From Henriciella sp. (GTDB lineage Bacteria > Pseudomonadota > Alphaproteobacteria > Caulobacterales > Hyphomonadaceae), in contig JAJFFK010000029.1 of assembly GCA_021776655.1 (NCBI GenBank), positions 1 to 63,845 of the forward strand: a stretch of DNA of 63,845 bases, in the 5' to 3' direction. The notes beneath the pieces are model-generated. The model ran no database searches and was not told where the DNA came from. It saw only the letters and a program-made list of their open reading frames with translations. Position numbers and translations under genes: made by a program. Below are positions 42,278-63,568 of this stretch, piece by piece (the first letter of the stretch is position 1; each line of letters begins with the position of its first letter).

Positions 42278-42426
42278 GTGCGCCGCCTCCTACCGCCACT
42301 TAGGCGCAAACCTATGTTTGCGGCAATGGGAATGTATTTTGCCCCGCGCTAACGCCCTTCGGGCGAAGCGGGTTTCGCGACCGCGCTTTGCGCTGCCACA
42401 TGAACCAAGCTCAGGGCTGTTCACAT

Positions 42427-42517
42427 CTCCGATGGCTCCGGGCTTGACCCGGAGTCTCTTGCCACGGTGACCGGGAGCTTAGCGAGAGATCCCGGGTCAA
42501 GCCCGGGACAGTCGGAG
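42427..42517. repeat. Nested palindromic repeat (CCCGGGTCAAGCCCGGG type)
   Basis: CTCCG...CCGGGCTTGACCCGG at the left pairs with CCCGGGTCAAGCCCGGGACAG at the right over about 33 bases with few mismatches. Each half is itself palindromic. It lies in the spacer of the larger element. Confidence 0.7.
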
Positions 42518-42543
42518 TTGGGGGCTGTGCTTCCCCATACCAA

Positions 42544-42640
42544 ATTGTCATCCCGGAATTTGCGTCAGCAAATATCCGGGACCCAGTGCTCGGCGTCCCT
42601 GGGTCCCGGATAAGCTTTTCAAGCTTTCCGGGATGACAAT
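42544..42640. repeat. Nested palindromic repeat (TGTCATCCCGG type)
   Basis: The ends ATTGTCATCCCGGAA and TTTCCGGGATGACAAT are inverted copies, with inner palindromes GGGACCCAG/CTGGGTCCC. This type (TCATCCCGG...CCGGGATGA) recalls dispersed repeats common in alphaproteobacteria. Confidence 0.7.
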
Positions 42641-42865
42641 GGAGGGTGAGGTACCCAGCCCTGAGCTTGGTTCATGACACCCGTGGGGCGCGCGACGATC
42701 GGGAACCCGCTTCGCCTCGCGTGACGCGAAGCGTCTTAGCGCGAGGCAAAACTCAACCCCGCCGTAAAAAACCTCCCGACAAGCGCCCGCATTCGCAGAG
42801 TGCGCTGATCCTGCGTTGCCTGAGCCTAGACTGGCTTCACTGCGTATCTTCTGCAAAGATTGCGC

Positions 42866-43213
42866 ATGCCCCGCTCCCCTGACACACATCGCGCCCGCAA
42901 ATTGCGCCAGTCGGCTAATACACCAGAGCAAAAGGCGTGGGCAGCGCTTCGGACATTGCGGGATCAGGGCTATCCGGTGCGGCGGCAGCATCCGATTGGC
43001 GGATATGTCGTCGATTTCGCGATTATCCGCGCCAAGCTCGTGATGGAGATTGATGGTAGCATTCACAATCTGGAATCTGTTCGCCTGACCGATGCAGCGC
43101 GGCAGGGGGAGATTGAAAAGCTTGGCTGGCGGGTGATCCGCGTGGATGCCGAAACGGCCCTAAGCGCCGATCATCTGCTGGCAATCATCTGTGCCGAGCT
43201 TGGGATTGATTGA
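42866..43213 (+). CDS. DUF559 (Vsr-like) endonuclease-domain protein
   Basis: The 115-residue protein has the DUF559 core: ARKLRQSANTPEQKAWAALR, VRRQHPIGGYVVDFAIIRAKLVMEIDG (the D-x(n)-E-x-D arrangement of a PD-(D/E)XK-like fold) and EIEKLGWRVIRVDAETAL. Members resemble the very-short-patch repair nuclease and are common near mobile or repeated DNA, but their biological role is not established. It begins 115 bp past the REPIN-like element and is followed by another repeat. ATG at 42866 preferred; the ribosome-binding site is weak. Confidence 0.85.
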   Translation: MPRSPDTHRARKLRQSANTPEQKAWAALRTLRDQGYPVRRQHPIGGYVVDFAIIRAKLVMEIDGSIHNLESVRLTDAARQGEIEKLGWRVIRVDAETALSADHLLAIICAELGID

Positions 43214-62467: not shown

Positions 62468-63349
62468 ATGGCTCAGCCGTATGATGATCGCGATGGATAT
62501 ATCTGGATTGATGGGGCTTTTTCGCCCTGGCGTGAGGCCAAGGTGCATGTCCTGACCCATGCTTTGCACTATGCCTCGTCGATTTTTGAAGGTGAGCGCG
62601 CTTATGGCGGGCAGATTTTCGAATCGCTACGCCATTCCCAACGCCTGGCCAATTCAGCAAAGATTTTAGGGTTTGAGTTGCCGGTAACGGTCGAAGAGCT
62701 TGAACATATCAAAACCGAAGCCTTGGCCAAATCCGGTTTGGAAAATGCTTATATCCGCGCTTTTGCCTGGCGTGGTAGCGAGATGATGGGCGTTTCAGCG
62801 CAGGACAATACAATCCATTTAGCCGTCGCCGTCTGGCCCTGGGGCGACTATTTTGCCGACAAGATGAAAGGCATAAGGATGACCCATGCCGACTGGCGGC
62901 GTCCATCCCCTGAAACGGCGCCCTGCCATGCCAAAGCGGCCGGCCTCTACATGATCTGTACACTGTCTAAACATGCCGCTGAGCGGGCCGGATATCAGGA
63001 TGCCCTGATGCTGGATTATCGCGGGCAGGTGGCCGAGGCGACCGGCGCGAACATCTTTTTCATGCGCGACGGCGCCCTGCACACGCCGATACCCGATTGC
63101 TTCTTGAACGGCATCACCCGCCAAACTGCGATCAAACTAGCCAACGCGCGCCAGATTGAGGTGATCGAACGCGTGATCATGCCGGATGAACTTGGCACAT
63201 TCAGCGAGTGCTTTATCACCGGATCAGCTGCCGAAATCACCCCGGTCGCCGAAATTGGCGAGTTCACTTACACGCCCGGCGAAGTGTCTGAAGCGCTGGT
63301 CAATGACTATTCCGATCTGGTCTACCGCAAAATCAAGATACCAGCTTAG
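62468..63349 (+). CDS. ilvE: Branched-chain amino-acid aminotransferase IlvE
   Basis: The 293-residue fold-type IV PLP enzyme shows IWIDGAFSPWREAKVHVLTH, HYASSIFEGERAY, the PLP lysine in CHAKAAGLYMI, EATGANIFFM and ECFITGSAAEITPV. It transaminates Leu, Ile and Val with 2-oxoglutarate. It is divergent from the MarR/OmpR pair across 55 bp. Confidence 0.95.
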   Translation: MAQPYDDRDGYIWIDGAFSPWREAKVHVLTHALHYASSIFEGERAYGGQIFESLRHSQRLANSAKILGFELPVTVEELEHIKTEALAKSGLENAYIRAFAWRGSEMMGVSAQDNTIHLAVAVWPWGDYFADKMKGIRMTHADWRRPSPETAPCHAKAAGLYMICTLSKHAAERAGYQDALMLDYRGQVAEATGANIFFMRDGALHTPIPDCFLNGITRQTAIKLANARQIEVIERVIMPDELGTFSECFITGSAAEITPVAEIGEFTYTPGEVSEALVNDYSDLVYRKIKIPA

Positions 63350-63357
63350 AGCTCTTG

Positions 63358-63568
63358 TTTTGCAATCCGCTAAGGCGCTTTGCGCCACGGATTGCGTAGC
63401 GGGTTCCCGATCGTCGCTGCGCTCCTCCGATGAACCAAGCTCAGGGCTATTTGCCACAAAGACTGGACATGCCGAACACAAAACAGCCCTGAGCCCGGTT
63501 CATGTTCGCGAAGCGAACGGAACCTGCTTGGCAACGCGTGACGCGAAGCGTCTTAGCGCGTTGCAAAA
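63358..63568. repeat. REPIN-like element, copy 2 (TTTTGC/CTAA family)
   Basis: Two inverted arms meet around a spacer of about 35 bp. Both begin TTTTGC, contain a hairpin with an unpaired CTAA, and end with the CATGAACCNNGCTCAGGGCT type segment. The right arm shares GTGACGCGAAGCGTCTTAGC exactly with copy 1. Stems are GCAATCCG/CGGATTGC on the left and GCAACGCG/CGCGTTGC on the right. Confidence 0.78.

Follow-up and report, generated by a model that had tools for sequence, protein, structure and literature searches.

Two palindromic elements in a 63,845-nucleotide stretch of a Henriciella genome (the window, which is contig C22 of a 2.97 Mb host assembly in 47 contigs) were confirmed as members of a real, dispersed repeat family. 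Its units are arms in which covarying hairpins accompany an unpaired tetranucleotide tag, CTRA, meaning CTAA and sometimes CTGA. The family functions like a REPIN without belonging to the canonical GTAG or CGTC REPs; its classing as a canonical REP was rejected on the grounds that GTAG, when looked for in its arms, was not found, and it looks like a new REPIN variety with a different tag. The explanation we favor, to which we give close to an even chance, is that these are short REPIN-type palindromic repeats, mobile but non-autonomous, and that a Y1 HUH transposase moves them in trans; the likeliest such enzyme is a RAYT from a divergent Henriciella group that we call the DY clade.

Anatomy and covariation of the CTRA arms

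The first-pass annotation of the window had proposed a genome-wide collection of the pattern TTTTGC-N6-CTAA, and this produced 78 matches in the host versus 9 for the reversed pattern; no fewer than two of these matches (L023 and L058) were without a hairpin, looked like chance, and were excluded from later model searches. A covariance model built from 40 distinct arms revealed at least 125 arms in the host, a lower bound for which 150 of 2462 candidates were scored. The host arms fell into 62 clusters, 20 of them single arms. In a set of 167 arms, inverted pairs within 700 bp numbered 48, the others being single, tandem (e.g., four arms in L017 with a period of 95–96 bp) or cut by contig ends. 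Several contigs start or stop close to an arm, a few hundred bases away at most, as would fit assembly breaks at repeats.

In each arm the tag is unpaired and lies 5' of a hairpin, at the foot of its inner stem, and an outer stem encloses the tag. This first hairpin is followed by GAAGC(G/A)GGTTC, a second hairpin and then GAACC..G, an order present in 119 of 150 arms; the second hairpin, between GGTTC and GAACC, had been overlooked at the outset. The second hairpin exists as several interchangeable types whose loop is mostly 3 nt long, a few of these segments being weak folds (one common type at −0.5 kcal/mol). In the palindrome directly 3' of the tag, the inner stem was paired in 98.7% of cells and four of its five pairs had changed on both sides, while 62 different 5'/3' strand combinations, some of them incomplete, were counted for the outer stem. 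Of 103 distinct rows, 88 carried CTAA as the tetranucleotide, 10 CTGA and 5 another sequence, with GTAG and GTGG absent throughout. By genome, the 150 rows comprised 107 CTAA, 4 CTGA and 3 other tags in the host, and 20 CTAA and 12 CTGA among the 32 arms of a relative, G022. The tag is thus not the invariant CTAA it was first taken for, and the CTAA share may even be overstated, since the models were seeded with CTAA arms.

That the stems covary, with the fold kept over the sequence, was also an initial claim, and it was upheld by double changes far above those of shuffled and slid controls. A MAFFT alignment of 40 of the 41 distinct arms (the one omitted, L032:1003–1060, is an insertion variant) had 82 double-changed cells, versus a shuffled mean of 25 and a slid maximum of 21, and 8 of 13 pairs had changed on both sides. 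The corresponding counts were 284 versus 84 shuffled and at most 65 slid in 103 distinct rows, and 337 versus a shuffled mean of 108 and a slid maximum of 75 in 114 distinct rows (drawn from the best 150 of 184 matches), both of these alignments having been made on the model and hence biased towards structure, and the shuffles ignoring relatedness. In the 114 rows, 10 of 13 pairs had changed on both sides and 97.4% of cells were paired, versus 71% when shuffled and at most 56% when slid. Further pair types separated less well, being equalled by 51 of 500 shuffles for the 40 arms and 42 of 500 for the 114 rows.

The four window arms, two per element, were present just where the first-pass annotation had placed them. 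Element 1 (42337–42751), recognized from its sequence and from matches at other host loci, is a long form of 415 bp with two inverted CTRA arms and other palindromes in its core; the similar matches, of 0.34–0.42 kb, lie at several other host loci, and several of them end exactly at TTTTGC/GCAAAA. Its left arm (42337–42374, plus strand; CTAA at 42349–42352; 40.6 bits with the covariance model) is shortened by about 10 nt and lacks the usual 3' outer stem, pairing being possible only via CCCGC/GCGGG. The second hairpin of this arm, of the family-wide kind, occupies 42371–42406 on the plus strand between GGTT and GAACC. The right arm (42704–42751, minus strand; CTAA on that strand at 42736–42739) was the top match to the model, at 76.6 bits. 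Nested in the core are the palindromes CTCCGGGCTTGACCCGGAG and TCCCGGGTCAAGCCCGGGA (42436–42508), parts of which recur at other host loci, and the pair TTGTCATCCCGGA...CCGGGACCCAG with its inverted partner (42545–42639), parts of which recur in other Henriciella genomes. The latter pair resembles REPs of the CGTC type (a TGTC variant with a CCA tail) as described in PMC3733652, and is a separate module. Element 1 sits between divergent genes; a DUF559 gene (42860–43213; 82.7 bits) adjoins it on the divergent side. Among the matches listed for DNA orthologous to its surroundings in 28 other Henriciella genomes, none crosses the site.

Element 2 (63358–63568) is an inverted arm pair in the compact form, 211 bp long, and starts nine bases past the stop codon (63349) of the gene at 62468–63349. 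Its left arm (63358–63405, plus strand; CTAA at 63370–63373) scored 65.4 bits and its right arm (63521–63568, minus strand; CTAA on that strand at 63553–63556) 71.8 bits. Compact elements of about 200–215 bp also make up most of the G022 pairs. Searches of the window against Rfam had no match at the gathering score, and element 2 had none in plasmid and phage collections.

Distribution and genomic placement

The family is restricted to some Henriciella. A search of 105 genomes of the bacterial family, with stricter filters and the host capped at 58 scored, found arms in five, all Henriciella: the host, G022 (41 arms), G006 (7), G003 (2) and G015 (1). A sample of the class, 385 genomes, returned the host and one weak match (G429, 29.9 bits), which was rejected as a family member and taken as chance, there being no GGTT context and the sequence looking like coding DNA. 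In the literature on repeats or mosaic elements of Henriciella, Hyphomonas and Hyphomonadaceae, mostly that outside subscription journals, no description of the CTRA family was found.

Where placement could be judged from gene calls made with a simple codon-usage script, the arms lay mainly in convergent intergenic sites. The 60 host clusters examined included 25 placeable between two called genes, 34 with one neighbor and 1 inside a called gene; of the 25, 16 were convergent, 7 tandem and 2 divergent, one of these being element 1, and the excess of convergent sites relative to the intergenic bases of the window had a P of 4e-6. In G022, where 4 of 17 clusters were placeable, 3 were convergent and 1 tandem. 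Such a bias, together with the stable folding of the window's inverted pairs (z of −7.6 and −14.4 versus shuffles, each foldable into one large hairpin), would suit an element acting mainly through RNA or DNA topology at gene 3' ends, in mRNA end protection, attenuation, or gyrase or IHF binding, with its spread being secondary. Roles of this kind have been proposed for BIMEs, the mosaic elements of E. coli, in which various palindromic modules are strung together both inverted and in tandem; the CTRA family shares such mosaic arrays, but its modules are unlike E. coli REPs in sequence and its long form nests other repeat families. We consider a mainly regulatory or topological role decidedly unlikely, as presence is patchy (5 of 105 genomes), element 1 lies between divergent genes, and a function would leave the dispersal unexplained. 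Nor is the hairpin an intrinsic terminator, since no U-tract follows it on either strand in the window elements.

When the joined flanks of pairs (at least 40 bases on each side) were compared with the set of loci, no clean empty site was found, the 21 alignments that crossed a junction all being nested or rearranged copies, and we therefore infer movement itself from the dispersal. The inverted ends, TTTTGC/GCAAAA, could be those of an ordinary MITE, with a DDE transposase reading them as terminal inverted repeats in duplex DNA. This is very unlikely in our estimation, as the stem sequences of an element's two arms are often unlike, the fold being all that they have in common, and target duplication was not noticed in the 48 listed pairs, judged by eye only. 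The REPIN reading, by comparison, draws its support from the covariation, the near-constant CTRA, the inverted pairs, and the dispersed copies that end at TTTTGC/GCAAAA.

A multi-copy gene 5' of many arms

Many of the arms in the host and G022 lie directly 3' of a multi-copy gene (e.g., L129:626–1009 and L022:86–418) whose product, some 125 aa long, has the motif WPWVWWQL. The gene had 16 matches in the host and 28 in G022, and was present in 49 of the 105 family genomes. Of the copies listed, 10 of 14 in the host and 10 of 25 in G022 had an arm no more than 400 bp away on their 3' side (14 of the 16 and 25 of the 28 matches being counted), on the same relative strand, the gene-to-arm distance being 71–99 bp in eight host cases, with one more at 84 bp, and 13–16 bp in nine G022 cases. 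Binomial tails overstate this link because co-duplicated copies are non-independent. Three of the four armless listed host copies reach a contig end within 168 bp, and in 12 armless G022 copies the slot is filled by other palindromes. A small hairpin with CCGCACGYGCTG, in somewhat varying form, follows 11 of those 12 copies and several arm-bearing ones, and 14 of the 15 places in G022 with an exact GGCCGCACGYGCTG come after one of the listed gene copies. The right end of the gene is a hairpin and then CCGCACGTGCTG, and a similar ending was seen by eye in 7 of 8 listed copies in a second genus. The protein seems to be under selection because dN/dS between gene copies was 0.14–0.30 (22 G022 entries, three of which repeat one locus, leaving 19 different). 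It had no match worth naming in Pfam, NCBIfam or PHROG, its alignment had none among PDB sequences to an E of 1, and none was found in the plasmid collection. In a GAAGCG subfamily (L012, L021, L022, L024, L025, L039 and L042), the gene frame crosses nested palindromes and has the TAA within CTAA as its stop, and the repeats therefore supply the C-terminus of the protein.

The proximity of the gene, the right-end motifs that follow it and the selection on its product raise the prospect that the arms are passengers of a larger WPWVWWQL gene unit, in which palindromes, CTRA elements included, fill the slot between the stop codon and the right-end hairpin with CCGCACGTGCTG, the protein might mobilise the unit, and free copies are remnants. 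We regard this as unlikely, if the least so of the alternatives: the 62 host arm clusters far outnumber the 10 listed gene copies with an arm, most clusters having no gene; the gene occurs in 49 genomes and the arms in 5, G003 having arms and no gene match; and other palindromes occupy the slot in those 12 G022 copies. The stronger proposal, that the gene, its 3' palindrome cassettes and the hairpin end constitute a new mobile unit which disperses CTRA and other REP-like palindromes of this bacterial family in place of a RAYT, is a long shot. If true, tagged REPs without a RAYT could have their missing mobiliser in the WPWVWWQL unit.

RAYTs of the host and its relatives

The favored reading, that of REPIN-kind repeats, brings the RAYTs to the fore. 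The host has two (NF047646; 177.8 and 184.5 bits). One, RAYT1 (C20:81224–81751; L059:3225–3752), lies inside a mutase-like operon, between two genes that we take to be mutase-like, and overlaps the next gene by 4 bp; no REP or CTRA hairpins were found in its surroundings. The other, RAYT2 (C20:91443–91970; L059:13444–13971), is bracketed by GTAG REPs GTAGGGCGGGTTTCAACCCGCC and was for that reason set aside as the cognate enzyme of the host CTRA arms. The host has the GTAG pattern in 23 exact copies, of which 16 form 8 inverted pairs that start 39–48 bp apart, and it accordingly holds an ordinary GTAG REPIN system alongside the CTRA family. A GTAG pattern search over 16 genomes used one loop length only and misses the longer-loop hairpins beside the G010 and G021 RAYTs, so its zeros are no proof of absence.

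As to a RAYT flanked by the same hairpins, the picture was mixed: neither host RAYT adjoins arms, and the single RAYT detected in G022 (L091:1492–1998) has, on its 3' side, a CTRA arm (2000–2045) that begins after one base. The chance of a RAYT adjoining an arm is roughly 0.7% per gene in a crude model, with arms favoring gene 3' ends. In a tree of 15 RAYTs, a split with support of 100/100 separated seven Henriciella RAYTs, the DY clade, in which the residues corresponding to E100-H101 are D-Y and that corresponding to Q95 is K, H or Q (K or H in six of the seven). The G022 RAYT is one of them, with WK..DY rather than WQ..EH and its catalytic Tyr intact. The other eight are all WQ..EH; among them are the two host RAYTs and also the RAYTs of G010 and G021, each of which has GTAG hairpins beside it. 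Six of the seven DY-clade RAYTs adjoin a gene that we presume to be nuclease-like, which in G022 lies two genes further away; host RAYT2 is also near a nuclease-like gene, yet belongs to the WQ..EH group. The catalytic Tyr, numbered as in the E. coli enzyme, was located by its spacing of four from a conserved Asn (N119 in PMC6006769). Four DY-clade RAYTs, those of G008 (L088), G024 (L089), G011 (L090) and G015 (L092), have Phe at the expected position, as if catalytically dead yet retained; G015, with one arm, is the sole genome of the four to have any.

The changed positions fall among residues 94–104, which PMC6006769 ties to the reading of GTAG; two subclasses whose REPs are typical also have D in place of E100 (PMC6006769), so a D there is not diagnostic on its own. 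The DY clade resembles, and might belong to, subclass 2.6 of TnpA-REP, whose members, according to that paper, have neighboring structures that lack GT(A/G)G and guide-reading residues that are not conserved. Cutting takes place at CT or CA, and changes to the tag alter or abolish it, according to PMC8266576.

The annotation's idea that a RAYT reads the tag was supported as to the unpaired tetranucleotide 5' of a hairpin and the presence of two RAYTs in the host, and lacked support in that the tag is not GT(A/G)G, the one in REPs that RAYTs are known to read, and that neither host RAYT adjoins these hairpins. With REPINs and their RAYT/TnpA-REP, as described by Bertels and Rainey 2011 (PMC3116915), the family shares inverted hairpin doublets, extragenic location, many copies, an unpaired tetranucleotide 5' of the hairpin, and RAYT genes in the genome; unlike them, it has CTRA in place of GT(A/G)G, an outer stem around the tag, two hairpins per arm, and no cognate RAYT in its host. 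The CGTC REPs of Alphaproteobacteria, as set out by Di Nocera et al. 2013 (PMC3733652), are likewise palindromic, dimeric and alphaproteobacterial, with no transposase assigned in their hosts. That superfamily has a CGTC, TGTC or CCTC tag and a short tail that is mostly CCA, whereas the CTRA family has its own tag, no CCA tail and another stem architecture, and the tag counts of the 103 distinct rows do not fit the CGTC superfamily.

An element is an inverted pair of arms, each a hairpin with unpaired CTRA at the foot of its inner stem and usually a second hairpin after it. A Y1 HUH transposase working in trans, most probably a DY-clade RAYT, would recognize the arms in their folded form in single-stranded DNA, with CTRA taking the role that GTAG has for ordinary RAYTs. 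The host may have lost its DY-clade RAYT and been left with an inherited population of arms, which would also grow through tandem duplication and recombination. RAYT-driven mobilisation is a plausible lead, and a DY-clade RAYT is the best-supported mobiliser, with roughly an even chance. In its favor, the only RAYT detected in G022 adjoins an arm, and the clade is changed at the positions that read GTAG. Counting against it, the host is without a DY-clade RAYT despite having the most arms, no RAYT was detected in the arm carriers G003 and G006, G014 has a DY-clade RAYT with its Tyr and no arms, the RAYT beside an arm is a single case, and RAYT and arm presence had no significant association over 25 Henriciella genomes (P 0.23).

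Most tagged REPs, by the account in PMC3733652, sort into GTAG repeats, which are tied to RAYTs, and CGTC repeats, which have no known transposase. A CTRA family with two hairpins per arm, together with an adjoining RAYT whose GTAG-reading motif is changed, is a natural pair for the study of tag reading, for which the host's own GTAG REPs and WQ..EH RAYT are a built-in control, and it could show whether tag and enzyme co-evolve.
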